DNA of 64,000 bases, from positions 62,001 through 126,000 of the forward strand of contig JAJSAM010000009.1 in the NCBI GenBank assembly GCA_024274785.1. The letters run 5' to 3'. Under the pieces are notes generated by a model. It saw nothing but the letters and a program-made list of their open reading frames with translations, did no database searches and was not told the DNA's origin. A program made the translations under genes and the position numbers. Positions within the stretch are counted from its first letter, which is position 1. Each line of letters starts with the position of its first letter. Positions 3,603-40,043 of the stretch are shown piece by piece. Origin of the DNA: Planctomycetota bacterium (lineage in GTDB: Bacteria; Planctomycetota; JAJSAM01).

Positions 3603-5423
3603 TCAACGGATGAGCGGCTCCCTCTTCCCCTGATCGATTTCGAGGAAACGATCCGCCGGAATGTTCGTGAACACCTGCCGGGTGAGGTTTGCATCCGGCC
3701 AGCGCACCTCCAGACGATCCACCTCGAGGGCGCCCCCGAGGCCGAAACAGGCTTCCGGGGGGTCCTCGTGATTCGCGAGCCCCGACCCGGCGCGGATCTC
3801 CCGGATCTGGGTCACTCCGCCGGCGGTCACGGTGATCCGTGCGCCGATGCCGCTCCGGTTCGCCTTCCGGCCGATCAGCCGGACATTCAGCCAATGGTTG
3901 CCGGAGCGGTTCCCGATGTCGTTGCGGAACAGCCCGACCTCGTTCACCGTGATCCCACCCATGTATTTCTCCCGGTGGGCCTTTCCGAGTCGCATGAAGG
4001 AGCGGCCGGCCAGGATGTCCACGTCACCGTCGCGGTCGTAGTCGCCGATGGAGAGGTCGCCGCAGCCTTCCCAGTTGAATCCCGCCTTTGGTGTCACATC
4101 CGCGAAGGACCCGTCTTCCTGTTGATGGTAGAGCCGCAGGTACTGGCCGTCCGGGTAGTCGCCGGAGCCGATCAGGAGGTCGAGCCGGGTGTCGTTGTCC
4201 ACGTCGAGCCACGCCGCGTGCAGATCGCCGTAGTTGATGCCTCTCGGGTTCTTCACGCGGAACTCCCGGGCCGGCAGGAATTCCTCGACCGGGTGGCGCT
4301 GGAAAGCCCATCCACCCTCCGCGCCGAGGTTCTCGAGGATGGCCGGCGGGTCGGAGGCTTCACCCGCCCAGGCGTGCTGGATCTCCCCGAGGAACAGGTC
4401 GAGATCGCCGTCGTTGTCGTAGTCGCCGACGGCGCAGTCGAACGTGTTGCCGTTGCTCCGGAAGGGCTGCTCCGGCGGCCGGCCCACCCAGTCTGGATAG
4501 CGGCCGTGCGTGATGTCATCACCGGAGAAGCCGGTCTCGAGCCCGACATCCTTGAACTTGCCGTTTCCGAGGTTCTGCCAGAGGTAGTTCCACTGGCGGC
4601 CGTAGGCGAGCTGGAGGAGATCCGGGAGGCCGTCGTTGTTCCAATCGGCGTGGGTGACTCCGTAGCTGGGGCGTGACGAGTTCGCTCGGGCCGGTTCGGG
4701 AACGGTGAGGAGTCCCGCGGCCTTCGTGATGTCGGAGAACCCTCCTTTGCCGTCGCCTTTCCACAGGCGGTCCACGCCGCACCCGTAAAGCACCCCGTAT
4801 TGCCGGTACTCCCGGCCTTCGTAGAGGTCGAGGTTGCCGTCGAGATCGACATCCACGAGCGCCAGGGCCATCGCCGGTCCGGCCATGTCCGGGTCGCTGA
4901 ATCGGCTCGGCTTCGCCTGTCGGAACCGGCCGTGCCCGTCGTTCAGCCAGATGGCGCTCCGGACGCCGTGATCACAAGCGGGTACCCGCACGAACCGTCG
5001 GCCGTCGAAGTACTCCCAAGAGGAGTGCACCCCGGAGACCGCGTCCTGGTCTCCGTCGTTATCGAGGTCGGCGAAGTAGAGGTACTGCGGAACGAACGGT
5101 CCGGTCTTCGCGCGCTCGAGGTCCGGTGTGCCGTCCTTCTTCATCGGCACTTTCCGGGTGAGGCGGAGTTCGATGCCGTGGTCCGTGGTCTCCGCGAACG
5201 TCTCGCCGCCCGCGGAGAGAAAGATGCGTTGCCGGTCGAGGCAGAGGTCGTAGTAACCGTCGCCGTTCAGGTCGGTGAAGATGCAGTCCTTGGCGCGGAC
5301 GCCAGAGAGCCCCACGTCTTTGCTGACGTTCACGAACCAGGGAGCGTCATCGGCTCCGGAGGCGAAGGGGGTGAGGGCGATCACCAGCATGAACGGGACG
5401 AAGAGGATCTTTGTGGTTCTCAT
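3603..5423 (-). CDS. Secreted CRTAC1-family protein (FG-GAP/VCBS repeats plus ASPIC/UnbV domain)
   Basis: 606 aa with a signal peptide ending near FASGADD. At least seven FG-GAP-like units carry Asp-rich calcium loops: DLNGDGYYDL, DLDNDGDQD, DVDLDGNLDL, DWNNDGLPDL, DYDNDGDLDL, DVDNDTRLDL and DYDRDGDVDI. They are expected to form an extracellular beta-propeller. The last ~100 residues match the ASPIC/UnbV domain (NHWLNVRLIGRKANRSGIGA, then VDRLEVRWPDA). Family members are exported calcium-binding proteins of largely unknown substrate. The start overlaps the stop of the upstream omega-amidase gene by 4 bp (TCAT on the plus strand), so it is probably the third gene of that operon. The functional link to the two metabolic enzymes is unclear. 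Confidence 0.85.
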   Translation of the reverse strand: MRTTKILFVPFMLVIALTPFASGADDAPWFVNVSKDVGLSGVRAKDCIFTDLNGDGYYDLCLDRQRIFLSAGGETFAETTDHGIELRLTRKVPMKKDGTPDLERAKTGPFVPQYLYFADLDNDGDQDAVSGVHSSWEYFDGRRFVRVPACDHGVRSAIWLNDGHGRFRQAKPSRFSDPDMAGPAMALALVDVDLDGNLDLYEGREYRQYGVLYGCGVDRLWKGDGKGGFSDITKAAGLLTVPEPARANSSRPSYGVTHADWNNDGLPDLLQLAYGRQWNYLWQNLGNGKFKDVGLETGFSGDDITHGRYPDWVGRPPEQPFRSNGNTFDCAVGDYDNDGDLDLFLGEIQHAWAGEASDPPAILENLGAEGGWAFQRHPVEEFLPAREFRVKNPRGINYGDLHAAWLDVDNDTRLDLLIGSGDYPDGQYLRLYHQQEDGSFADVTPKAGFNWEGCGDLSIGDYDRDGDVDILAGRSFMRLGKAHREKYMGGITVNEVGLFRNDIGNRSGNHWLNVRLIGRKANRSGIGARITVTAGGVTQIREIRAGSGLANHEDPPEACFGLGGALEVDRLEVRWPDANLTRQVFTNIPADRFLEIDQGKREPLIR

Positions 5424-6205
5424 TTCTCATCTCCAGGTCGGCGATACAGCTCCGGGCGGCGATCCGCGAGGAAACCGAAGTGCGCACGGGCTTCCTTCAC
5501 GGCGGCCGGGTCGATCTCTCCGCAAACCACGGCCGGATCCATGCTCGCCTTGTCGATCACGCGGCCGAAAGGATCCAGCAGCACGGTGTCTCCACGGTGG
5601 GGCTGACCGCCTCCTTCGCCGACGCGGTTCACGCCGAGGACGAACGCCTGGTTCTCCATGGCCCGCGCCCTCAGCAGCGTTCGCCAGGCATCGCTTCTAC
5701 GTTCCGGCCAGTTGGCGATGACGAGGAAGAGGTCGGTATCCTCCGCGGCCGCCCGGAACAGCTCCGGAAAGCGGAGGTCGTAGCAGATCACCGGGGTCAC
5801 CCGCAGGTTCTCGATCGGGACGGTCACGAGGCGCTCCCCGGCCTGGTAGTGCTTGTCCTCTCCGGCGAGGGTGAAGGGGTGGATCTTGTGGTACTTCCCG
5901 ACCTCCGCTCCGTCCGGTCCGAAGAGGGCGCATGTGTTCAGCGGCAGGTCCTCGCCGGGCTCGACGAAACCTCCCGCCACGTGGACGCCGAGGTCCCGGG
6001 CCAATGCTGCCAGGAACTCCCGGGTCGGTCCGGCGTGCTCCGCGGCCCCCGCCGCGTTCATGGTGAACCCGGTGGCGAACATCTCCGGCAACACGATCAG
6101 CCGGGCGCCCGCCCTGGCCGCCCGGTGGGCCAGCGCCCCGGCACGGAGGAAGTTCTCCGCCGGGTCTTCCCAGGCGATGTCCATCTGCAGTCCGGCGACC
6201 TTCAT
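5420..6205 (-). CDS. Carbon-nitrogen hydrolase, likely omega-amidase (YafV/Nit2 type)
   Basis: 261 aa, the usual length for Nit2-type omega-amidases. The nitrilase triad is visible as Glu41 (VLPEMF), Lys107 (GKYHKIHPF) and Cys141 (VICYDLRFPE). The expected reaction is hydrolysis of alpha-ketoglutaramate or alpha-ketosuccinamate to the keto acid plus ammonia in the cytosol. I start the gene at the ATG at 6205 rather than further upstream because the protein then begins MKVAGLQMDI, the normal first strand of the family, and overlaps the aminotransferase stop by 4 bp. The upstream partner is a glutamine-transaminase-like enzyme, which matches the transamination plus omega-amidase route in which the amidase pulls the reaction forward. 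A different amide substrate remains possible. Confidence 0.85.
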   Translation of the reverse strand: MKVAGLQMDIAWEDPAENFLRAGALAHRAARAGARLIVLPEMFATGFTMNAAGAAEHAGPTREFLAALARDLGVHVAGGFVEPGEDLPLNTCALFGPDGAEVGKYHKIHPFTLAGEDKHYQAGERLVTVPIENLRVTPVICYDLRFPELFRAAAEDTDLFLVIANWPERRSDAWRTLLRARAMENQAFVLGVNRVGEGGGQPHRGDTVLLDPFGRVIDKASMDPAVVCGEIDPAAVKEARAHFGFLADRRPELYRRPGDEK

Positions 6206-7377
6206 GACCTGATCCTCGACAGGCGTTTCGCCGCGTTCTGCAAGGTCTCCATCCGCTTGCAGAAGGCGAAGCGGACCAGCCGCCGGCCCTCCTCCGGATT
6301 GACCCGGTAGAACGCGCTCGGCGGGATGGCGGCGACGCCGTGCTCCGTGGTCAGCCAGCGGGTGAATGCGCGGTCGTCGCCGTCGAAGAGCGCGGTGAAG
6401 TCCGCCAGCACGAAATAGGTACCGCGGGGCTCCGACACCTTGAAGCCGGCCTCGTCGAGTACCGTGAGCAGGAAATCCCGCCGCCGGGAATACTCGCGCC
6501 TGAATTCCGCGAGGAAACCGGCGCCGGTGAACTCGGTGAGCGCGTGCGCCATGGCGACCTGCAGCGGGGTCGCGACGGCATAGGTCACGAACTGGTGGGC
6601 GGCCTGTGCGGCATCGATCAGTGCGCGCGGCCCGGTGCCCCAGCCGATCTTCCAACCTGTGTACGAAAAGGTCTTCCCCGTGCTGGAAAGCGTCAGGGTG
6701 CGCTCGCGCATTCCCGGCAGCGTGGCGATGGGGACGTGCCGGGCGTCCCCGAAGGTCAGGTGCTCGTAGACCTCGTCGGCGAGCACGATCAGATCGTGCT
6801 CCTGCGCGACGGCCGCGATGCCTTCGAGTTCGGCGCGGGTGAACACCTTGCCCGAGGGGTTATGCGGGCTGTTCAGGACGATCATGCGGGTCTTCGGGCC
6901 AACGGTGCCTGCCAACTCATCGAGGTCGAGTGCGAACTCGGGGAACCGGAGTGTCACGAAGCGGGGGAGTGCCCCGGCCAGGGCGGTGCAGGCCGGATAG
7001 CTGTCGTAGAACGGTTCGAAGAGAATGACCTCATCACCCGGGTTCAGGAGCCCGAGCATGGAACTGGCGATGCCTTCGGTCGCCCCGGAGAAGACGAGGA
7101 CCTCCCGCAGCGGGTCGTACCGGAGACTATAGAGTCGTTCCCGGCTTTCCGCGATGGCCTTGACCAGAGCGGGATGCCCGCGCGACCGCGCATACTGGTT
7201 GTCCCCGGATCGCAGCGCGGCGACGGCCGCATCGACGATCTCCGGCGGCCCTTCGAAATCCGGATAACCCTGGGACAGGTTGATCGCCTGGTGCTCGATG
7301 GCGAGCCCGGTCATCTCGGCGAAGATCGTCGTTCCGAAGGGCGCAAGCTTCTTTGATATCAAGTGGAACGTCCTCAT
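6202..7377 (-). CDS. PLP-dependent class I/II aminotransferase (methionine / glutamine transaminase K-like)
   Basis: 391 aa from the ATG at 7377. The N-terminus (MRTFHLISKKLAPFGTTIFA) and the INLSQGYPDFEGP segment are typical of the KAT/GTK/YbdL branch. The PLP site is clear: Lys235 in LSSTGKTFSYTGWK, the Asn pair in LNSPHNPSG (169, 173) and Asp201 in ADEVYEH. The open frame extends upstream to 7638, but that part has no family similarity and runs through a short tandem repeat, so I exclude it. The next gene, overlapping by 4 bp, is an omega-amidase. Together they suggest glutamine-dependent transamination of a keto acid such as 2-oxo-4-methylthiobutyrate in methionine salvage. The precise amino-acid substrate cannot be read from sequence. 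Confidence 0.85.
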   Translation of the reverse strand: MRTFHLISKKLAPFGTTIFAEMTGLAIEHQAINLSQGYPDFEGPPEIVDAAVAALRSGDNQYARSRGHPALVKAIAESRERLYSLRYDPLREVLVFSGATEGIASSMLGLLNPGDEVILFEPFYDSYPACTALAGALPRFVTLRFPEFALDLDELAGTVGPKTRMIVLNSPHNPSGKVFTRAELEGIAAVAQEHDLIVLADEVYEHLTFGDARHVPIATLPGMRERTLTLSSTGKTFSYTGWKIGWGTGPRALIDAAQAAHQFVTYAVATPLQVAMAHALTEFTGAGFLAEFRREYSRRRDFLLTVLDEAGFKVSEPRGTYFVLADFTALFDGDDRAFTRWLTTEHGVAAIPPSAFYRVNPEEGRRLVRFAFCKRMETLQNAAKRLSRIRS

Positions 7378-7411
7378 GAAGTGGACGGCAAACGAGGATA
7401 CAGAGAAGTAG

Positions 7412-7443
7412 AGCAGTGAAGCAGTAAAGCAGTAAAGCAGTAT
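7412..7443. repeat. Four tandem copies of an 8-bp unit
   Basis: Units AGCAGTGA, AGCAGTAA, AGCAGTAA and AGCAGTAT lie end to end 35 bp upstream of the aminotransferase start, in the divergent intergenic region. Nothing shows a function; slippage-derived microsatellite is the simplest explanation, though direct repeats this close to a start could bind a regulator. Confidence 0.8.
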
Positions 7444-7616
7444 GTTGGTGCGTGTCGAAATCCCCCCCGGGGTCGGGCGCTGTCCGGGCCACACCCAACG
7501 CTGCGCCGTCTCCGGAAGATCAGCCTGAACCAGGAACCCGCACCCTGTCAGGCCGACCTCATCGAAGGTCTCCCCGTTCGTTGCCTCCTTCTCTCGTGCA
7601 TCCCGCCGGGCTGGAC

Positions 7617-26190: not shown

Positions 26191-27939
26191 GTGCCCTTGT
26201 CGCTGATTCCGCCAGAGAAGATCGACGAGGTCCGCGATGCCACCGACATCGTCGACCTGATATCGCGTTACATCCCTCTTTCGCGAAGCGGCGGCACGTA
26301 CAAGGCGAACTGCCCTTTCCATCAGGAGAAGACCCCTTCGTTTCACGTCTGGCCCGACACCGCAACCTGGAAGTGCTTCGGCTGTGGCAAGGGGGGCAAC
26401 GCGTTTCACTTCATCATGGAGCGGGAGCGCCTCGAGTTCCCGGAAGCGGTCCGGACCCTGGCGCGCGAGGCCGGGATCGAAATTCAGGAGGAGCGGGGCG
26501 AGCGCCGGAACGAGGGCGATCGGGAGAGTCTCTACAAGACTCTGGAGTGGTCGTGCCGGTACTTTCAGGCGCGCCTGCGCGGTCCCGAGGGCCGGAAAGC
26601 GGTCGAGTATTGCAAGGAACGGGGAATCACCGGCGAGACGGCGAAGGACTTCCGGATCGGCTACGCTCCTCCGGGGTGGCGGAACCTGATCAACGCCGCG
26701 CAATCGGCGGGCATTTCGCTCGAGTTGCTGGAGCGCACGAGCCTGATCCGCCCCGGCGATCGGGAACCTTACGACTGGTTCCGGGACCGCCTGATGTTCC
26801 CCATCCAGGATATCCGGGACCGGGTGATCGCCTACGGCGCGCGGGCGTTCGGAGACGATGAGCCGAAATATCTGAACTCGCAGGACACCGCGCTGTTCAA
26901 GAAAGGGAAGCAACTCTATGCGCTGAACCTGGCCCGGGAGGAGGTGCTGAAGACCCGCCGGATCGGGATCGCCGAGGGGTACACCGACGTCCTGATGGCC
27001 CATCAACACGGGATCAGGTGGCTTGTGGCCGGTCTCGGGACGGGGCTCACTTCCGAGCACGCGAACCTGGCCCGGAGGTATGCGGACCGGGTGGATCTGA
27101 TCTACGACGCGGACACCGCGGGCCGGCGCGCGGCGGAGCGTGCCCTCGATGCGTTCCTCGAAGTGGATGCCGACGTGCGGGTGGTCCAACTGCCCGGCGG
27201 GAACGATCCTTGCGACTTTCTTACGAATTTCGGAAAGGAATCGTTCATTCAGCGAATTGATGAGGGACGCGAGGTGTTCGATTTTCTGGTGGAGCGCACC
27301 GGGGAGCGGCATGACCTCGCCACCCTGAACGGTCGGATCGAGGCGGTGGATGACATGCTGGCTTCGGTGGCGCGTACGGAGAACCAGGTAAAGCGGGACT
27401 TTCTGCTCAACCGCATTTCCGAGGCTTTCGACGTCACCGAGAGTGCGGTTCGGGAGCGGCTCAAGATCTTTCGGGGGCGTCGGCGTGGCGCCGTCGAGAC
27501 CGGGAGCGCCGGGGGCGCTGAAGAGCCGGAAGACGTTTCGGAGGAACGGTTCCTGGTCGAGGCGGTGGTACTCGGGGAGGGCCTCGCGGCCCGCCTTGCG
27601 ACGGACTGGCCTCCGGAGCGTTTTCGGAATCGGATCTACCGGACCATCGCTCTCGAGGCCGTCTCGATCGTACAAAGCGGAGGAAACCCGGACCCCGGTA
27701 CCGTCGCCGGACGTTTGAGAGAGCCGGAGGTGGGCCAGGCGCTGGCCACCATCCTCTCGGTGGCGAAGGGAAAGAGCGATTTTGAGCGCCAGTATGAGGA
27801 CTGCCTCGGCAGGTTGCGCCTTCAGGAACGTCTGAGCGAGGTTCGGGTGGCGCTGTCGCAGGCCCGGCAGTCCGGTGATGAGACTGAAATTCGTGAACTC
27901 GAGCGAGAACTCTTTCGCCTGAGGGTCGAGAGGCACTAA
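26191..27939 (+). CDS. dnaG: DNA primase DnaG
   Basis: 582 aa. The N-terminal zinc-binding domain has Cys41, His44, Cys62 and Cys65 ([22 protein letters not shown]). The catalytic core includes YAPPGW and the RNA-polymerase-like motif IAYGARAF. The Toprim domain carries [12 protein letters not shown] and the [13 protein letters not shown] motif with its metal-binding aspartates. A divergent helicase-binding C-terminal region follows. DnaG makes RNA primers on the lagging strand. The GTG at 26191 has only a weak ribosome site; a TTG two codons downstream is an alternative. It is followed 40 bp later by rpoD, the classical macromolecular-synthesis pairing. Confidence 0.95.
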
Positions 27940-27979
27940 AATTGTCGATTCTTTGTGGCTTCAGAGGAGACGCGGCCGC

Positions 27980-29674
<1,695 letters not shown>

Positions 29675-29678
29675 CTCG

Positions 29679-29705
29679 AAGGCCGGCCGAAAGGCCGGCC
29701 TTTTT
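29679..29705 (+). terminator. Intrinsic terminator after rpoD
   Basis: AAGGCCGGCC (29679-29688), a GAAA loop and GGCCGGCCTT (29693-29702) form a 10-bp stem followed by T's through 29705. It lies 4 bp past the rpoD stop. Confidence 0.93.
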
Positions 29706-29786
29706 CATTGGTACTGACAATCGAAGATAGGGGCTGGCGAAAAACCGGGCCGGAGTCCTCCTGGGGAACCGGCCGATGACGCCCAT

Positions 29787-30509
29787 ATGGAGACCGGTAG
29801 GTTGAACAAGGTCATCGAGAAGCTGCTCTCTGTGCAGGAATTGGATGTGGAGATTATCGAGGTGAAGCGGAAGCTCGCTGGGGGACCGGCGAGACTGAAG
29901 GACGATGAAGATCGACTCGAACGCCACCGCGAGTCCCTGGCCGTGGCCGCCCGGACCGCGAAGGAGGCGCTGCGCGTCGCCGAACGCAAGAACGGTGAAG
30001 TGGATGCGGTGGACGAGAAGATCAACGGTCTCGGCGCGAAGATGAACACCGCGCGAACGAACAAGGAGTATGAGGCGTTCAAGACCGAAATCGCCGGTCA
30101 CAAGGCGGATCGCGAGATCCTCGAAGAGGAGGCCCTGCAGCAGTGGGCGGTCGGTGAAGAGCGCGAGGCCGAAGCCGCCCTCGAGGAGAAGAAGGTCAAG
30201 GCCATCGAGGTCGAACTCGCGGCGGCCCGGGAGGAGTGGCAGCGGGAGGCCGTCGTCCTCGAGTCGAAGCTCGGCGAGTTGGACGAGGTCCGCCGGGCGC
30301 GCCTGAACGGACTCCCGCCGATGTGGCTGATGAGTTACGAGCGTCTTCTCAAATCCCAGGGCACGCCGGTCCTGGCGCCGGTTGTCGATCAGTACTGCCA
30401 GGGCTGCCAGATGAGCCTGTCGATTCACGACGTGACCCGGGCCTGGAAGGGCGCGGAAGTCGTGAAGTGCCGCCACTGCAACCGCATCCTCTACGCGGAG
30501 ACCTTGTGA
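29787..30509 (+). CDS. Coiled-coil protein with C-terminal zinc ribbon (DUF164 / C4-type family)
   Basis: 240 aa. Residues about 1-175 are a long charged coiled coil containing the family-typical MNTARTNKEYEAFKTEI segment. The C-terminus holds a four-cysteine zinc ribbon (YCQGCQMSL and VKCRHCNRILY). The family is widespread, cytoplasmic and of uncertain function, with a suggested nucleic-acid-associated role from its similarity to chlamydial CT398. The stop codon overlaps the GTG start of the HtrA gene (GTGA), so the next two protease-like genes are probably co-translated with it. Confidence 0.85.
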   Translation: METGRLNKVIEKLLSVQELDVEIIEVKRKLAGGPARLKDDEDRLERHRESLAVAARTAKEALRVAERKNGEVDAVDEKINGLGAKMNTARTNKEYEAFKTEIAGHKADREILEEEALQQWAVGEEREAEAALEEKKVKAIEVELAAAREEWQREAVVLESKLGELDEVRRARLNGLPPMWLMSYERLLKSQGTPVLAPVVDQYCQGCQMSLSIHDVTRAWKGAEVVKCRHCNRILYAETL

Positions 30510-31579
30510 GGGCGATTGTGCGGGCCATCACCCTTTCGCTGCTGCTGGTGTTGGTGCTCCCGGCACCCGGCGCGTCCGGTGAAGGGGGGGGGCGGGACAG
30601 AGGCGCCATCGAGGCCAGCCGGAAGCGGGCCGGAGTTCTGCAGGCGAAGGTCCAGGCGCTCGTCAGGAGGGTTCGTCCGGCGGTGGTCTCGATCTTCGCG
30701 TCCGGGCCCTCAGAGATCGGTCCGGGTTTTCGGCAGGGAGCCGGCTCCGGAGTGCTCATCTCCGCCGATGGTTTCGTGCTCACCAATGATCACGTGGCCG
30801 GCTGGGCGAAGGATGTCTCCGTCACCCTGGCCGGTCGCCGCGTGCTGCCGGCCAGGATCATCGGCCGCGATCCGGGCGGTGACCTGCTCCTCCTGAAGGT
30901 CGAAGCCGGGGGGCCTCTGCCCTTTGCCTCGTTCGGAGATTCCGGAGCGCTGCGGCCGGGCGCCTGGGTCTTCGCCATGGGCAACCCCCGAGGCGTCTCG
31001 CCCGACGGCCGCGCCATCGTGACCTGGGGCACGGTCACGGCGGTGAACCGGCTTGGCGGAAATCCCCGGGGCCGCCGCCAGTTCTACGGCGACGCCATCC
31101 AGACCGACGCCGAGATCAACCCCGGAAACTCCGGGGGACCGCTCTTCGATCTCAACGGGAAGCTGGTGGGCATCAACGGCCGCATCGCTACCACGACGCA
31201 GCTCAAGGGCAACCTCGGCGCGGTGAATACGCGAGTCGGCTACTCCATCCCCACGAGCCAGATCAGGCGCTTCCTTCCGCGGTTGATGGTCGGGGGCCTG
31301 GTCCGCCACGGCTACCTGGGAGTGCGCACCACGGCGCTTCAGAATGGCGACCTCGCCGTCTCTTTCGTGATTCCCGGTTCCGCGGCCGAGCGGGCGGGGA
31401 TTGCTCACGGCGACATCATGCTGGCGATCGACGGGGAGAAGATCACGGGACGGGTCCGCCTGACGAACCTCATCTCGAGCCGGCCCGAGGGGCAACGCGT
31501 TGCGGTCAGGGTGCGGCGTGGGGATGCGGAGCGCATCTTCGTCGTGACCCTGGGCGCGCGGCCGGAGGACGAAGAATGA
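30506..31579 (+). CDS. HtrA/DegP-type serine protease with one PDZ domain
   Basis: 357 aa from the GTG at 30506. A signal peptide (about residues 1-25) directs it to the periplasm. The trypsin-like domain has the full triad: His96 (LTNDHVAG), Asp126 (RDPGGDLLLLKV) and Ser209 (NPGNSGGPLF). A PDZ domain spans about residues 265-350 (GYLGVRTT, AAERAGIAHGDIMLAIDG). Such enzymes degrade or refold misfolded envelope proteins. A run of nine G at 30584-30592 lies just after the signal peptide, where slippage would destroy the frame. It is coupled at both ends: GTGA with the zinc-ribbon gene and ATGA with the downstream pseudoprotease. Confidence 0.9.
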   Translation: MRAIVRAITLSLLLVLVLPAPGASGEGGGRDRGAIEASRKRAGVLQAKVQALVRRVRPAVVSIFASGPSEIGPGFRQGAGSGVLISADGFVLTNDHVAGWAKDVSVTLAGRRVLPARIIGRDPGGDLLLLKVEAGGPLPFASFGDSGALRPGAWVFAMGNPRGVSPDGRAIVTWGTVTAVNRLGGNPRGRRQFYGDAIQTDAEINPGNSGGPLFDLNGKLVGINGRIATTTQLKGNLGAVNTRVGYSIPTSQIRRFLPRLMVGGLVRHGYLGVRTTALQNGDLAVSFVIPGSAAERAGIAHGDIMLAIDGEKITGRVRLTNLISSRPEGQRVAVRVRRGDAERIFVVTLGARPEDEE

Positions 31580-33213
31580 GATCGATGGTCTCTCTCGCCA
31601 TTCTGCTGCTGATCTCCGGCGTGGCGGTCGCCGTGCCTCTTTCGGTGGCCGAGGATCCCGGGAGGGCTCTCGCCGCGGACTTGTCCGATCACGTGGTCCG
31701 GGTGATGGGGATCCGTGCCGGAGGCCGGGGAGCGTTGCCGGCGGTGGGAGTGCTGCTCGGCGATGGCGACCTGGTGCTGACCACGACGCAGCGGGCCGAG
31801 CGCGGTCGCCGGACGACGGTGGTGGTGCCCGGTGAAGAGGAACGGATCGGGGAGGTCATCGTGCGCGACCGTGCCACCGGCGCCACGCTCATCCGCATCA
31901 GCCCGCCCGCGTCGGTGGGTGGAATCGACGTATCCGGTGCGACTCCGAAGGCCGGGGACCCGATCCTCACCGCCGGTTTCCCGTTCGGGGGACCGGGCGC
32001 GGAACTCAAAGCGGCGGTGGGGCTCGGTGTGATCGCGCAGGTGCGCCGGAAGTCCGCAATGGACGACCCCGCCGACTACCTGATCACCTCCGCGGTCAAT
32101 CTCGGCGACGTGGGTGGGCCGATCATCGACCGCACCGGGAAGCTGATCGGGATTCTCTCGCACCGCGGAGACCCCTACACCGGCCTGGCTGCGGCCATTC
32201 CGGTGCCGCGGATCCGTCGAGCGATGGAGGCTCTTGCCGAGGCGAAGACCGCGCTGTCTCCCGCAAGGCCCACGACGGTGGTTCGCGACGACGCCTGGCC
32301 GGTGCACGACACCCTCGAGGACGCGGTTGATCTCGTCGATCCGGCGGTCTTCTCCATCGTGGTGACGAGGGAGGTGAGGGGGCGTCCCGGTGTATCCGCG
32401 GGAACCGCGTTCTTTATCGACCACGAGGGGCATGCGCTGACCGTTTCCGAGAACGTCAGGGACGTGAAGACGATCCGGGCGATACTTCCGGATGGGCGGG
32501 AGTTTCCGGTGACCAGGCGCGGCGAGGACGAACGTCGCGGTGTCGTCCTGCTTACGGTTGAGGGGGGGGAACTGCCCGGACCGGTGAAACTGGCGACGGA
32601 ACTGCCGGCGATCGGATCATTCGTCGCGGCGGTGGGCCGTCCCGGCGGCAAGGACTGGTGGAACGGTCCGCTCGTCACGGTCGGCATCATCGGCGCGCAA
32701 AACCGCAACGACCGCCGGTGGGGGGCCCTGCATACCGACGCCGCCGTGAACCGGGGCAACGCGGGTGGGCCCCTCCTCGACCTCGATGGGAACGTCGTTG
32801 GGCTTCTGAGCACGCTCGGCGGCTCGACGCTGACCGGATTGGGAGCGAATTCCGGCCTCGGCTTCGCCATCCCGTCGAAGACGATTCTCGAGTTCCTCCC
32901 GGCGCTTCTTCGCGGGGAGACCCTGGCCCATCGGCCCGGGCATCTCGGCGTGACCCTGAACAATACCCCCGCGCCCGGCGGTGGCGTCATCGTGGATGGG
33001 GTGGACCCCGTTCGTCCGGCCGCGAGGGCGGGCATGATGGTCGGTGACGTGATCATCGAAACGAACGGCGACCCGATCCGCGGCATCGAGGATCTGCGCC
33101 GGGTTTTCACGGAGTTGCGCGAGGGCGAGGAGGCGGTGATCATCGTCCGTCGCGGCGAGGAGACGTTGACCCTCCGGCCGACGCTCGGCAAGTGGCCGAC
33201 GCCGCCCCGATAA
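31576..33213 (+). CDS. Tandem HtrA-like pseudoprotease with PDZ domain
   Basis: 545 aa with a signal peptide. Two trypsin-like domains (about residues 35-225 and 250-445) are followed by a PDZ domain (about 455-540, RPAARAGMMVGDVIIETNGD). Compared with the active neighbour, all six catalytic positions are changed. In domain 1 the His position is Gln72 (LTTTQRAE), the Asp position is Gly102, and the Ser position is Val179 (NLGDVGGPI). In domain 2 they are Asn293, Gly322 and Ala396 (NRGNAGGPL). The surrounding fold motifs, including the GGP after the serine site, remain. It is therefore probably a non-catalytic regulator, adaptor or substrate trap for the HtrA protease with which it is translationally coupled (4-bp overlap). 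Confidence 0.85.
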   Translation: MRSMVSLAILLLISGVAVAVPLSVAEDPGRALAADLSDHVVRVMGIRAGGRGALPAVGVLLGDGDLVLTTTQRAERGRRTTVVVPGEEERIGEVIVRDRATGATLIRISPPASVGGIDVSGATPKAGDPILTAGFPFGGPGAELKAAVGLGVIAQVRRKSAMDDPADYLITSAVNLGDVGGPIIDRTGKLIGILSHRGDPYTGLAAAIPVPRIRRAMEALAEAKTALSPARPTTVVRDDAWPVHDTLEDAVDLVDPAVFSIVVTREVRGRPGVSAGTAFFIDHEGHALTVSENVRDVKTIRAILPDGREFPVTRRGEDERRGVVLLTVEGGELPGPVKLATELPAIGSFVAAVGRPGGKDWWNGPLVTVGIIGAQNRNDRRWGALHTDAAVNRGNAGGPLLDLDGNVVGLLSTLGGSTLTGLGANSGLGFAIPSKTILEFLPALLRGETLAHRPGHLGVTLNNTPAPGGGVIVDGVDPVRPAARAGMMVGDVIIETNGDPIRGIEDLRRVFTELREGEEAVIIVRRGEETLTLRPTLGKWPTPPR

Positions 33214-33401: not shown

Positions 33402-33466
33402 GCAACGCCGCTTTGCGGGATGGAGCGGCTCTCGAATGCAGCAGCTATTCCCGGATGGGCCCTCGG
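33402..33466. repeat. 65-nt dispersed repeat, copy B
   Basis: Partner of 19288-19353; contains the identical block TCGAATGCAGCA. Its right end overlaps the last codons of the convergent multiheme lipoprotein gene, whose C-terminal residues AHRGPIRE it encodes on the minus strand. Confidence 0.6.
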
Positions 33467-34695
33467 TGTGCGATGACCGGCCACTTCTTCTCGAAGCTGA
33501 AACCCGGGTCCGTGTCCTCGGTGTGGCAGCTTCGGCAGGCGGTCCGGGCGTCGGCGGGGGGATGCGTTGCCGGTGACTCGATGTGATCCGCGGCCGGGCC
33601 GTGGCACGACTCGCATCCGACCCGGGCCAGCGCCGGGGTCTCGAGAGTGGAGGTGAAGCCCGTCTTTTGGCCGTAGCCGGTCACATGGCAGGAGACGCAG
33701 TCCGGATCGACTTCGCGGCCGGTCTTCTCGAGCGATGTGATGGCCCTGGCGTGCCTCGAGGCGTGGTGGGCCCGGGCCTCCTGTTCGTGGCAGGTCGTAC
33801 AGGCCGCGTCGCCTTTGTATCCGCCGTGTTCGGCCGGGGCCATCGGGTTCATGCGGGCAAGGAGATCCTCCCGGGCCAACCGGGCGACATAGGTCGTCAT
33901 CGCCCGGCGCATGGCCGGGTGGTCCTCGAGGTCTTCCGAGAGGTCGATCACTTCGGGGACCTCTCCGGCGCGGACCATCCATCGGGAGCGGTCACCGGGC
34001 GTGAAGAGCCGCTCCGAATCCACCGCCGGCTCGCCGATGCCGTGGGCGTAGATCACCGCCGCGGCCCGGCGCTCACGGTTCGCGATCCGCAGTGCGCCTT
34101 CCCGCGGCCCGTGAAAGAGCACGATGATTTCGGTCCCGGCGGCGGTCCCTTCGATGATCTTCGCCACGATCCGTTCGGGATCGGCGACCTTTGCGCCAGG
34201 GGCCAGCGCCGGGTCCAGCACGCCGATCACCCGCACCGCGCGACCGTCGAGTTCGAAGTCCGCGGTGGGGGCGAAGATCCGCTCGCCGGCCTCGTCCAGC
34301 AGGTTCGCCGAAAGGAGGGGGAAGTTCGCCATCCCGGCCGCGGACTTCAGGAAGTCGATGCCGAGTTCGAGGTCGCCCTCGCCGATGTTCAGGCACACGC
34401 AGCCGATCTCCGAGAGCGCGAGGAGGAAGGTCTCGAACTTGAGTTCGGAGAGTCGCCCGCCTTGCCGCACGAGATCGCCGTTCTCGAGGAGCGGAGCGCC
34501 GTCCACGGCGGTGCCCTTTCTCGCCAGGCCGCCGAGTTGTGGGCGTGTGCAACCGCAGGGTTCGAGATAGCCGTGTTCTTCCCCGGCGACGAACCAGACG
34601 CCGGGGGCGGCGGGCGGGGGTGTTTCGGGCGCCTCCGGTCCGCACGAACCCGAGAGAAGAGCAGCCAGCACCAGCGGCAGAGCCCAGCGCGTCAT
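33445..34695 (-). CDS. Multiheme cytochrome c lipoprotein with metallophosphatase-like N-terminal part
   Basis: 416 aa from the ATG at 34695. The lipoprotein signal ends LSGSC (lipidated Cys18). The N-terminal ~230 residues (GYLEPCGCTRPQLGGLARK, ENGDLV, FPLLSANLLD, VIGVLDPAL) resemble the bacterial 5'-nucleotidase/metallophosphatase-like fold, with an unusual CGC motif. The C-terminal part has four CxxCH heme sites: CTTCH, CVSCH, CESCH and CRSCH, as in cytochrome c554-like proteins. It is expected to be a periplasmic electron-transfer protein. The start overlaps the stop of the DUF1573 lipoprotein gene by 4 bp. The distal end overlaps a dispersed repeat, so the last residues may be recent. 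Confidence 0.85.
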   Translation of the reverse strand: MTRWALPLVLAALLSGSCGPEAPETPPPAAPGVWFVAGEEHGYLEPCGCTRPQLGGLARKGTAVDGAPLLENGDLVRQGGRLSELKFETFLLALSEIGCVCLNIGEGDLELGIDFLKSAAGMANFPLLSANLLDEAGERIFAPTADFELDGRAVRVIGVLDPALAPGAKVADPERIVAKIIEGTAAGTEIIVLFHGPREGALRIANRERRAAAVIYAHGIGEPAVDSERLFTPGDRSRWMVRAGEVPEVIDLSEDLEDHPAMRRAMTTYVARLAREDLLARMNPMAPAEHGGYKGDAACTTCHEQEARAHHASRHARAITSLEKTGREVDPDCVSCHVTGYGQKTGFTSTLETPALARVGCESCHGPAADHIESPATHPPADARTACRSCHTEDTDPGFSFEKKWPVIAHRGPIRE

Positions 34696-35804
34696 TCCTC
34701 GTCCACCTCTCCCGGAACCTCGTAGGGGATGGCCACCCGGGATCCCTCCTCGGCGTCGGTGGTGATCACCAGGGAACCTCGCACGGTGCGCTCGAGCGCC
34801 TCCCCGGCGATGGTGACCTTGATCTCCCACTTGGCCGGGGTTTGCCGGCGGAGTTCCGTATCGAACATCCCGGAGGGGTCTTCGATACCGGTGACGGTGA
34901 GTGGCTTACCGTCATCGCGGTAGACGTAGATGTTCCTGGTGATTGGCTCTCCGGATTGAAGTCGCGGGTAGTAGAGTCGTTCCGGCACGACGAGGACGCT
35001 CTGGCGCACGGAGCCGATTACGTTCAGCGTCAGGTGCGGATCGCGCAAGCTGTTGGTGTAGACGGTCACCTTCTCGCTGAAGTCCCGCGAGTCGAAAGAG
35101 GGGCCGAAGGTGAGGTCGATCCGGTACCCGGCCAGCTTCGAGGTGGTGGGGAGGGCCGTGACCTCGGCGACCAGATCCGGTTTGCTCGTCCGCACCTCCT
35201 TGATCCGGAGGTCGAATCCGGGGCGCATCACCCGGACGAAGAAGTGTCCCGTAACCGCCCCGGCCGACCGCGTGGCGCGGACCACGAGAACGATCGGATC
35301 CAGCGCCGCGTCGGCGATCACCGTGCAGGAGATCGGGTACTTCGCCACCGGGTGGGTCTTGCTGTTCGTGTACACCTCGACCGTCTTCTCCCGCCGGCCG
35401 GCCAGGGTGCCGGAATTCAGGGTGACCTCGAGGGTCCCGCGGCCACCGGGCTCGATGGTCTTGCTCGAGAGCAGCGCGGCGGCGCACCCGCAGTGGGTCC
35501 TCACTTTCGTGATGGTGAGCGGGGCCTTGCCGGCGTTGTAGAAGATCGCGGTGTGCGAACTCATCGTGTTCTTTTCCCGCATTCCGAAGTAGTGGCCGTC
35601 CGCGGTGAAAACGAGGCGGGGCTCGTCGCCCGCAAGCACCGGCGGGCCGGGGTCGGGATCGATGGTCGGTGCCGTCGCCTGCTTCGGTAAGTCTCGGGGC
35701 GCCGGCTCGGGTTCGGGAATCGGCCCCGGCCCCGAAGCGTTCGGTGCAACGCATCCGAACAGGGAGATGCAGATCGCGAGCAGGAAGAGCAGCGTGCGGG
35801 ACAT
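34692..35804 (-). CDS. DUF1573 (ASH-like) lipoprotein
   Basis: 370 aa with a lipoprotein signal (LAICISLFGC, Cys18). A Pro-rich linker leads to a DUF1573 domain with its signature NAGKAPLTITKVRTHCGCAA (about residues 90-110). A second beta-sandwich repeat follows (VVPERLYYPRLQSGEPITR, KPLTVTGIEDPSG). These immunoglobulin-like domains are common in Bacteroidota and Planctomycetota envelope proteins, and their ligands are unknown. It is the first gene of a pair with the multiheme lipoprotein, so the two products may act together at the same membrane. Confidence 0.85.
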   Translation of the reverse strand: MSRTLLFLLAICISLFGCVAPNASGPGPIPEPEPAPRDLPKQATAPTIDPDPGPPVLAGDEPRLVFTADGHYFGMREKNTMSSHTAIFYNAGKAPLTITKVRTHCGCAAALLSSKTIEPGGRGTLEVTLNSGTLAGRREKTVEVYTNSKTHPVAKYPISCTVIADAALDPIVLVVRATRSAGAVTGHFFVRVMRPGFDLRIKEVRTSKPDLVAEVTALPTTSKLAGYRIDLTFGPSFDSRDFSEKVTVYTNSLRDPHLTLNVIGSVRQSVLVVPERLYYPRLQSGEPITRNIYVYRDDGKPLTVTGIEDPSGMFDTELRRQTPAKWEIKVTIAGEALERTVRGSLVITTDAEEGSRVAIPYEVPGEVDEE

Positions 35805-37258: not shown

Positions 37259-38398
37259 TCAGTTCACTTCGAAGAACTTCTCGATGGCCACCAGGTTCTC
37301 CGCGTGGTCCCGGCGAATGACCACGTCGTCCTCGATACGGATGCCTCCGATTCCGGGGTAGTAAAGACCCGGCTCCACCGTCACGATCATGCCTTCCTTC
37401 ATGGTCTCATCGACGCCGCCGATCCGCGGTGGCTCGTGAACGTCGAGACCCACGCCGTGACCGGTGCCGTGGAAGAAGCCGTGCATCTTGCCGTTCGCCT
37501 CGCCGGTTTCGAATCCACGGTTCTTGAAGACGTCCTTGATGGCGGTGTGCACCTCTTTCGCATTGATCCCGGCCTTCAGGCGATCACATCCGAGTTGCTG
37601 TGCCTCCTTCACCGCCTCCCACATCTCTTTCACCTTCGCAGACGGCTTGCCACGCACGACGGTGCGTGTGATGTCCGCGTGGTAGCCCGACGAGGTGTGG
37701 CAGGGGAAAACGTCGAAGATCACCGGCCAGCCGGCGCGGAGCGGGCCGGAGCCGCGATCGTGCGGATCGCAGGCCTGCTCACCGCCGGCGACGATGGTGT
37801 GACGGCCTTCGAGTCCCCGTTCCATCAGGGCGCTGTCGACGACGAAACGTACGCTTTCCGAGGTGAGCGCCTTGCCGTTCAGATAAAGCTTTCCGGCTCG
37901 CGGCCTGCTCTTTCGCAACTGGTCGATGCCGAGGTGTATCGCCTCGGCGGTGAGGCGGGCGGCCTCACGCACCGCGTCGATCTCATCCTCGTTCTTGATG
38001 ACCCGGTCCGGCCAGAAGGGGGGCATGACCGCCTTGATCCTGATGCCGTTGCGACGCATGCGGTCGGCGACGAAAACGGGAAAGTCGTGCGGCACTCGCG
38101 CCCGCGTCACGCCCTTCTCCTTGAGCGCTTCGATCAGGATGTCCGCCATGCCGGCGGGTTTGCCGGTGCGCTTCTTCAGGCGCTTTGCGTACTTCGACAT
38201 CGGGAGGACGGACTGGACCTTCGCCTCCGAACGGGCGCGGCCGATCTCAAGGTCGCTCGCGATGATGTACTTGCGCCAGCCGATCTGGAAGAAAGGGAAC
38301 GGGTCCGGCGCGAAGAACCGGGTTGCGTACAACAGGTCCTTGTTCTGCTCGCTCCCGGCGAGGATGACGTGCGCTTCCTTCTCGGCCTTCTTGCTCAT
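37259..38398 (-). CDS. M24-family metallopeptidase (Xaa-Pro aminopeptidase-like)
   Basis: 379 aa from the ATG at 38398, with AAGGAGG 9 nt upstream. An N-terminal creatinase-like domain (to about residue 140) precedes the pita-bread catalytic domain. The five metal ligands are recognisable: Asp in VIFDVFP, Asp in HADITRTVV, His in GTGHGVGLD, Glu in TVEPGLYY and Glu in RIEDDVV. It should remove N-terminal residues before proline in the cytoplasm with two divalent metals. The last gene of a two-gene minus-strand unit with the HEAT/hydrolase-like gene (25 bp apart). Confidence 0.9.
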   Translation of the reverse strand: MSKKAEKEAHVILAGSEQNKDLLYATRFFAPDPFPFFQIGWRKYIIASDLEIGRARSEAKVQSVLPMSKYAKRLKKRTGKPAGMADILIEALKEKGVTRARVPHDFPVFVADRMRRNGIRIKAVMPPFWPDRVIKNEDEIDAVREAARLTAEAIHLGIDQLRKSRPRAGKLYLNGKALTSESVRFVVDSALMERGLEGRHTIVAGGEQACDPHDRGSGPLRAGWPVIFDVFPCHTSSGYHADITRTVVRGKPSAKVKEMWEAVKEAQQLGCDRLKAGINAKEVHTAIKDVFKNRGFETGEANGKMHGFFHGTGHGVGLDVHEPPRIGGVDETMKEGMIVTVEPGLYYPGIGGIRIEDDVVIRRDHAENLVAIEKFFEVN

Positions 38399-38423
38399 GG
38401 GGGCAGTCCTCCTTCGACGGATC

Positions 38424-39953
38424 CTACCTGAGACCGTGGTAGTCGAGGAAACCCTCGATGATCCGGTAGAACTCCGCGTACTCGGAGATGTAGGGGAATC
38501 CACGCGACTCGTGCATGACCGCGATCACGTTGTTCGGGAAGTGGCGGCGGATCAGCTCCGCTTCGGGGAAGCCCGAGAGGCGGCTCGCGCCCCCGAAGAA
38601 GAAGAGAATCGGGGTCTCGATTTTCGCCCGTGGATTGAAGCGCAGGTCGGGGACGGTGACGAACCCCTGGGGATCACGGGCCCGCGTCCACAGGAGGAAT
38701 GCGTTGCTGTCCCGGGAGTCCATCTGCCTGGCGGTGAGCATGACCCGGGCGATCTGGCGATGGGCGGCCTCGTTGTGTTCGACATCGTTCCGGCTGGTGA
38801 GGGTCCGGGCCACCCAGCGCTCGGCGGGATTGGGCGACCGCGACAGGCGTCCGAGGGCCATCGCGTACGAGCGCACGTCGATGAAACCGTTCAGGATGAT
38901 CACCGCCGCGGTCCGCTTCTTGTACCGGATGGCGTAGCGCTCGGCGATCCATCCCGTGGCGCCCTCGGCCAGAATGACCACGCGGTTTTTTCCCAGCTCG
39001 AGACGGAGTTCCTCGAGGGCCTTCACGAGGTTGCCCACCGGGTAGGTCGGTGCGGCGCCGCCGTATCCGCTCTGCCCGGTGAGCTCCTGGATGCGTGGCA
39101 GGCGGACGTACGTCACCCGGGCGTACTTCGCCAGGTCGTCGAGGTAGGGCCGGTACACGTCGTGGGTCCAGCCGAGCGGGGCCAGGATGAAGATGTCGAG
39201 CAGCGGCTTGCCGGTTTCGCTGGTGCGCGGCGGGACGGTGATGGTCTCGAGAGGCAGCTTTCCGAGCTTGCGGCGCTTCACTTCCTCGTCGAGGCCCTGC
39301 AGCGCCGCGGTATCCCGGTTCCGCTTCCACCAGTCCGCCCACATCTTCGCGTTCCGTCCGAAGTTCTGTCCGGTCACGCTGCGCAGGGTGTACGCGATGT
39401 TTGCCGCGACACGCAGATCCTTCTCTTTCGAGAGCGTCGCAATCAGTGCTTCGAGCGACTCCTTCGAGACGATCTCCCGCAGCGCGATCGCGGCCATCCG
39501 CCGGACTCGCCAGTCGGGATCGGCCAGCCCCTCCACGAGCGCTTCGGCATCGCCCTTTTCCGGGGAGAGTGCGAAGGCCAGCGCGATGCCTTCCCGGACG
39601 ATGAATTCGTCGTGCGTGATCAGATCGAGTCGGAGCTCGGCGCGCAGGGCCGGCGTGGTCACCCCCGCCAGCTTCTCCGCGGCGAGCCCGCGGATGTACC
39701 AGTGCTTGTCGGTCAGGAGCTTGCGGAGCGGTGGCAGCGAGCGGGGATTCTCGAGGTCGAGCAGATCGAACGCGCGCGCCCTGCGATCCAGGGAGCCGGA
39801 TTCCATGAAGTCATCGAACCGCTTGAGGATCTTCTCGTAGCCATCGCCCTCGGCGTGCACGGCGCCGCCGGCGAGAGGGAGCAGGAGCAGCAGGAGCAGC
39901 AGGAGCAGCAGGAGCAGCAGGAGCAGCAGGAGCAGGGGGATCGAGCGTCGCAC
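38424..39953 (-). CDS. Exported HEAT-repeat protein with alpha/beta-hydrolase-like C-terminal domain
   Basis: 509 aa from a GTG at 39953. The signal peptide core is 19 consecutive leucines encoded by a 9-bp tandem repeat. Residues about 35-200 contain HEAT repeats (FIVREGIALAFALSPE, PDWRVRRMAAIALREI) and the W-x-D-W-W-K end motif. The C-terminal ~270 residues follow an alpha/beta-hydrolase plan (LLDIFILAPLGWTHDVYRPY, VVILAEGATGWIAERYA, ETPILFFFGGASRLSGF, HESRGFPYISEY). At the nucleophile elbow the expected GxSxG reads EGATG, so the serine is absent and the domain may be non-enzymatic. There is no Shine-Dalgarno sequence, and TATGAT lies 6 nt upstream of the GTG. The ATG at 39964 is in another frame. 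Confidence 0.75.
   Translation of the reverse strand: MRRSIPLLLLLLLLLLLLLLLLLLLPLAGGAVHAEGDGYEKILKRFDDFMESGSLDRRARAFDLLDLENPRSLPPLRKLLTDKHWYIRGLAAEKLAGVTTPALRAELRLDLITHDEFIVREGIALAFALSPEKGDAEALVEGLADPDWRVRRMAAIALREIVSKESLEALIATLSKEKDLRVAANIAYTLRSVTGQNFGRNAKMWADWWKRNRDTAALQGLDEEVKRRKLGKLPLETITVPPRTSETGKPLLDIFILAPLGWTHDVYRPYLDDLAKYARVTYVRLPRIQELTGQSGYGGAAPTYPVGNLVKALEELRLELGKNRVVILAEGATGWIAERYAIRYKKRTAAVIILNGFIDVRSYAMALGRLSRSPNPAERWVARTLTSRNDVEHNEAAHRQIARVMLTARQMDSRDSNAFLLWTRARDPQGFVTVPDLRFNPRAKIETPILFFFGGASRLSGFPEAELIRRHFPNNVIAVMHESRGFPYISEYAEFYRIIEGFLDYHGLR
39879..39935. repeat. 9-bp tandem repeat encoding the poly-Leu signal peptide
   Basis: Five full GAGCAGCAG units with partial units on each side encode, on the minus strand, the Leu-Leu-Leu codon triplets CTG CTG CTC. 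Loss or gain of units would lengthen or shorten the hydrophobic core by three residues without a frameshift. Confidence 0.9.
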
Positions 39954-39959
39954 TGCGCT

Positions 39960-39965
39960 ATCATA
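39960..39965 (-). promoter_or_regulatory. Possible -10 element for the HEAT/hydrolase-like gene
   Basis: TATGAT on the minus strand lies 6 nt before the GTG at 39953. A start site 7 nt downstream falls on the start codon, implying a leaderless mRNA. The -35 position holds AAAAAG, a poor match. Confidence 0.35.
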
Positions 39966-40043
39966 ACACGGGTCGAAATGACCTTTTTCATTGGGCCCTC
40001 AGAAGGCGCCTGCTAAGGTCCGTTTCCCCCGAAACCGTTTACG

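Follow-up and report, generated by a model that had tools for sequence, protein, structure and literature searches.

Most of the tandem HtrA loci examined across the Planctomycetota encode one active HtrA domain together with two catalytically dead ones, and their products probably form a three-component HtrA, a heterotrimer with a single active site whose one catalytic protomer (A) is accompanied by two dedicated dead partners (P1 and P2). We regard this as the best explanation because of the 1:2 ratio of active to dead domains, the existence of single-chain forms, and the retention of the L3 sensor arginine in the dead domains. The original prediction of a hetero-oligomer with an inactive regulator has become the best-supported reading, but it missed the three-domain logic, namely that one active and two inactive domains are inherited as a set.

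The locus lies in the window, by which we mean the whole stretch of 64,000 nucleotides that was analysed (Table 1). Pfam confirmed the predicted architecture of the downstream gene, in which Trypsin_2 matched twice (3.7e-32) and a PDZ domain lies at the C-terminus, and the upstream HtrA likewise gave Trypsin_2 and PDZ_2 matches. The intact triad ascribed to the upstream protein is present in full, the 4-bp overlap of the two genes is as described, and five of the six triad replacements proposed for the downstream protein were borne out. At the sixth position, in P2, the catalytic His is indeed lost, but the profile alignment places Glu292 there and not Asn293. Both proteins have an HtrA-type trypsin-like domain followed by a PDZ domain, as in the HtrA/DegP family (MEROPS S1C), and the intact triad of that family is found in the upstream protein; the downstream protein is an HtrA homologue and not an HtrA protease because all six triad positions are replaced. 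The nearest sequence and fold matches are DegP, DegQ and DegS, including solved structures. Against the NCBIfam Do-family model TIGR02037, the HtrA scored 222.8 bits and the pseudoprotease 184.6 bits, below the cut-off of 416 bits, so they are related but divergent. AlphaFold modelled the pseudoprotease with full folds (pLDDT 89.2, pTM 0.88).

Table 1. Parts of the HtrA/pseudoprotease locus, in window coordinates.
Feature	Position	Strand	Remarks
Conserved upstream gene context	26191..30509	+	same order in G001
Active HtrA (A)	30506..31579	+	GTG start; signal peptide; H96/D126/S209 triad in the trypsin-like domain; one PDZ
A trypsin-like domain, aa 56-260	30671..31285	+	profile match
L3 sensor Arg182 of A	31049..31051	+	
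A PDZ domain, aa 269-348	31310..31549	+	Pfam
HtrA/pseudoprotease gene overlap, 4 bp, ATGA	31576..31579	+	same overlap in G001
Double pseudoprotease P1-P2-PDZ, 545 aa	31576..33213	+	with signal peptide
P1, first dead trypsin-like domain, aa 47-220	31714..32235	+	Q72, G102, V179
L3 Arg157 retained by P1	32044..32046	+	
P2, second dead trypsin-like domain, aa 254-444	32335..32907	+	E292, G322, A396
L3 Arg377 retained by P2	32704..32706	+	
Pseudoprotease PDZ domain, aa 455-534	32938..33177	+	Pfam

The same pair of genes is found in G001, a genome of another genus of the same family, with an HtrA 57% and a pseudoprotease 48% identical to those of the window. Because this 48%-identical ortholog also lacks all six triad residues, the six-residue loss is not a sequencing accident of the window contig. 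The 4-bp overlap is retained in G001, and synteny extends to both sides of the pair, from the upstream genes, which we take to be dnaG, rpoD and a zinc-ribbon coiled-coil gene, to cytochrome c554-like, DUF1573 and NUDIX genes downstream. A second, paralogous pair of one active HtrA and one double pseudoprotease occurs in the same family (G000:C47, G001:C240 and G002:C91). A search of genome contigs with the two orthologs as queries yielded canonical DegP alone, from Alphaproteobacteria and others, and no ortholog.

Tandem HtrA loci were collected from across the phylum, and the profile alignment was used to determine which residues occupy the triad positions of each trypsin-like domain. An expansion of PSD1 proteins (PF07587) in related genomes, with at least 39 copies in G032 and G055, points to the Planctomycetota as this phylum. 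Exactly one active and two dead domains were present in 79 of the 91 tandem clusters, representing 62 genomes and 31 families; conservation of the pair across genomes, which had been named beforehand as a check, is thus strongly positive in this phylum-wide census. The domains are distributed over genes in various ways: A followed by a fused P1-P2 (28 clusters, the window among them), three genes in the order P1, P2, A (22), a fused P1-P2 followed by A (19), three genes in the order A, P1, P2 (5), all three domains in one open reading frame (4), and a fused A-P1 with P2 apart (1). The last is found in L158, where an active HtrA is fused with P1 in an 887-aa protein (4945-7605, minus strand) and P2 is a separate adjoining gene. 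Gene junctions within the sets are tight, often with 4-bp overlaps. The window locus, which reads HDS in the first gene and QGV and EGA in the second, has one active and two dead domains, adjacent and on one strand, with P1 and P2 orthologous across loci, and in the domain tree its domains fall among their A, P1 and P2 counterparts from elsewhere. Where the genes are separate, each pseudoprotein examined has its own PDZ domain. The P1 protein of L152 (6366-8351, 662 aa) has one dead trypsin-like domain and then four PDZ domains.

Half of the 12 exceptions are clusters cut by contig ends (L151, L209, L232, L235, L240 and L253). L204 and L222 have a second active gene or a second double pseudoprotease beside a full set; in L222 (G222:C636), one active HtrA is flanked by two double pseudoproteases. 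L165 is a tandem of two intact HtrAs, and L135 and L138 contain another operon of the 1+1 type. We also looked for the finding that the original prediction had put forward as evidence against itself, a homologue in this context whose triads are restored, and the sole candidate was the P2 of L167. Its seemingly intact triad most likely reflects a one-residue alignment shift, since it reads LTSHYH where a relative reads LTSQFN, which leaves Tyr at the His position. Since loci were included for their resemblance to tandem or fused copies, the census tells how loci with dead domains are built and not how frequent they are. A profile of the fused form, which does not count separate-gene sets, matched 63 of 392 Planctomycetota genomes at E<=1e-100. 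At that cut-off it had no match in 150 genomes from the phylum to which G297 belongs, and at 1e-85 none in 200 from that of G299, a Defluviitaleaceae and a Bosea locus having served as entry points to these phyla, and no full-length double match was found in 25 further genomes reached through canonical DegP loci. The set is probably not universal, because lineages f27 and f44 had no tandem matches among the matches listed.

The ancestry of the domains was examined with a FastTree phylogeny of 251 domains (237 from the 79 complete sets and 14 of outgroup DegP), in which roles were assigned by gene order. All 79 P2 domains fell into one clade (98), and the labels A, P1, P2 and outgroup required three changes, the minimum possible, as compared with a mean of 126 for shuffled labels. 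In a smaller IQ-TREE run, the active domains of these loci formed one supported clade (29 rows, 96). Given that the labels fit this tree with no change beyond the minimum, P1 and P2 seem to have had a single origin and to have been inherited alongside A from before the divergence of the gene-order lineages. FastTree readily joins long branches, and the weight of this conclusion rests on the agreement of gene order with the tree.

In four genomes of family f60 (G087, G104, G148 and G175), the whole set is a single A-P1-P2-PDZ protein of about 870 aa. It comprises one active domain, two dead domains and one PDZ domain behind a lone signal peptide at the N-terminus, and A and P1 have no PDZ domain between them. 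These triple fusions are 60-70% identical to one of them, which across four genomes argues against an assembly error, and the family also has the two-gene form with A and a fused P1-P2. Fusion of proteins that occur separately elsewhere is classically taken to indicate that they associate physically. Judged from the confidence scores, AlphaFold predicts that the domains take up definite positions relative to each other in both the window protein and the triple fusion (pLDDT 85.8 and pTM 0.89 over 831 residues for the latter). Foldseek with the triple fusion matched only single HtrA chains, which cannot show inter-domain geometry.

An alternative is that the dead domains act outside a homotrimer of A, as a brake or a substrate-delivery adaptor, with P1-P2 docking on it by means of PDZ or peptide contacts. 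The PDZ domains of the separate pseudoproteins would suit such a role, as would the full set of HtrA motifs in A and, in the lineage with A encoded first (A-first), its interface aromatic described below. However, neither the 1:2 domain ratio nor the separate orthology of P1 and P2 would be expected of an external adaptor, nor would A-P1-P2 single chains without a PDZ domain between the protease domains, and we consider this explanation unlikely.

The arginine of the SAxxR motif, the sensor of HtrA1, is presumably equivalent to DegP R187 and DegS R178, and we used this motif to match the L3 arginine column of the alignment to the HtrA1 sensor. In human HtrA1, where this residue functions in activating the adjacent protomer, the L3 of each monomer is coupled to the LD of its neighbour, and the R302A mutation abolishes substrate binding while the trimer stays intact (PMC5666011). 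All three domains of the window have the L3 arginine. Among the active domains, it is present in 32 of 38 A-first loci and in 30 of 41 loci in which A comes last (A-last). P2 has it in all 41 A-last and in 16 of 38 A-first loci, and P1 in 11 of 38 A-first loci. P2 fits the picture of a trans-activating protomer, having retained a residue that works on its neighbour while losing those that work in its own site. At the alignment position which we equate with Phe256 of HtrA2, at the trimer interface, an aromatic residue is frequent in the A-first lineage (fractions of 0.89 in A, 0.63 in P1 and 0.76 in P2) and uncommon in the A-last lineage (0.15 in A and 0.05 in P1). This scarcity in A-last A and P1, as well as the partial retention of the L3 arginine in A-first P1 and P2, counts against a heterotrimer.

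We infer the stoichiometry and the regulation of the one-active-site heterotrimer as follows. A, P1 and P2 would fill the three places of the usual HtrA trimer, the dead protomers providing the trimer interface, the substrate-binding surface and PDZ domains. Their L3 arginine, acting in trans, would order the active-site loops of the adjoining A protomer, and proteolysis would take place only in the assembled complex, in the envelope. Extended to the phylum, the account becomes one of an obligate heterotrimeric HtrA with one working site of three, whose dead protomers evolved once, before the sampled families radiated, and act allosterically through the L3 arginine in trans, some lineages having a covalent single-chain trimer; we also favour this fuller account, although more guardedly.

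Judged from the alignment, the triad replacements are not random. P1 of the A-last lineage typically has T-E-D at the triad positions, and in 40 of 41 cases the Q of its QTD motif is replaced by E. P2 of this lineage has Phe or Tyr in place of His in 25 of 41 cases and keeps Asp in all 41, the catalytic Ser in 8 and His in 2. The conserved replacements in P1 could form a binding site, and MamO provides the precedent of a protease domain that binds metal (PMC4794232). It is therefore conceivable that the pseudoproteases have an unrelated binding job, for a metal, a peptide or a cell-envelope ligand, and that the operon merely co-expresses them with HtrA. We hold this to be more doubtful still than an external adaptor: the domains have stayed adjacent to the active one even where their order was rearranged or they were fused to it, and the L3 arginine would have no obvious use in a stand-alone binder.

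In the close pairs compared, purifying selection on P1 and P2 is as strong as on A, with dN/dS values of 0.147 for A, 0.181 for P2 and 0.112 for P1 in L245/L247, and of 0.166 for A and 0.130 for P1P2 in L155/L200. Functionless, decaying paralogues left by tandem duplication, which might be suspected from the numerous HtrA genes of these genomes and from a window protein without any triad residue, are very improbable given dN/dS far below 1 and near that of A, orthologs in 31 families, full folds by AlphaFold, and conserved replacements at specific positions.

A conserved HtrA set of one active and two dead members in bacteria was not found described in the full-text literature, in which subscription journals are thinly covered. 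CspBA/CspC of Clostridioides difficile also combine one active and two pseudoprotease members that work together, but they have a subtilisin-like fold, serve spore germination and are not homologous. The nearest precedents are plant DEG7 and MamO/MamE. DEG7 of plants and fungal relatives has one active and one degenerate trypsin-like domain with four PDZ domains, and the inactive domain of AtDeg7 is reported to take part in trimerisation, a likeness in that an HtrA-family dead protease domain is retained for oligomerisation (PMC3473262). However, DEG7 is eukaryotic, and its one dead domain is always fused, with PDZ pairs after each protease domain, whereas the bacterial set comprises two dead lineages, each conserved in its own right, and has signal peptides; the window locus encodes two chains with two dead domains in all and one PDZ domain per chain, and the triple fusion has one active domain, two dead domains and one PDZ domain. 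In magnetotactic bacteria, the active HtrA MamE is encoded with the pseudoprotease MamO, which is required for its proteolysis and promotes it, the triad of MamO itself being dispensable (PMC4794232). MamE/MamO differ in having one pseudoprotease and in being confined to magnetotactic bacteria, with repeated triad loss there. MamO, which works by way of a metal site and a TauE-like domain in the membrane, is not known to contact MamE directly; the window pseudoprotease has no TauE-like transporter domain and reached 12.6 of 800 bits with the NCBIfam MamO model. DegP, DegQ and DegS share the fold, the PDZ domain and the L3 sensor arginine with the set, but consist of three identical active protomers, in contrast to the one active and two dead protomers proposed here.

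Because HtrAs have been studied as homotrimers in which each protomer does both, their cutting and signalling roles are hard to separate. A natural set that confines catalysis to one protomer, its partners having evolved without catalysis from a time before the sampled families diverged, would separate them genetically, and the residues still kept by the dead protomers would reveal the requirements of trans-activation. For structure determination, the single-chain A-P1-P2 proteins offer constructs that nature has already made. Protease assemblies with dedicated pseudo-subunits are known from the proteasome and ClpP/ClpR rings, and the set would bring such an assembly to the HtrA family.

Other HtrA-like genes were observed in the same family as the window. 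The operon of L135 (G000:C70, 4199-7212) and L138 (G002:C131, 2643-5632) is a different one, in which a long active HtrA (679 aa) precedes just one trypsin-like pseudoprotein, which is very divergent and has no recognisable Ser loop. All three genomes of the family also have a lone HtrA-like pseudoprotease (L136 in G000, L140 in G002 and L143 in G001; 437, 423 and 437 aa) with the triad R-K/H/Q-A/V and no active neighbour within the fetched stretch. In the window itself, the multi-haem cytochrome c554-like gene and the DUF1573 gene, syntenic in G001, are convergent to the HtrA operon (33445-35804, minus strand). Further downstream, an open reading frame at 37926-40016, probably no gene, ends over an (EQQ)n-like repeat tract at about 39900-40016.
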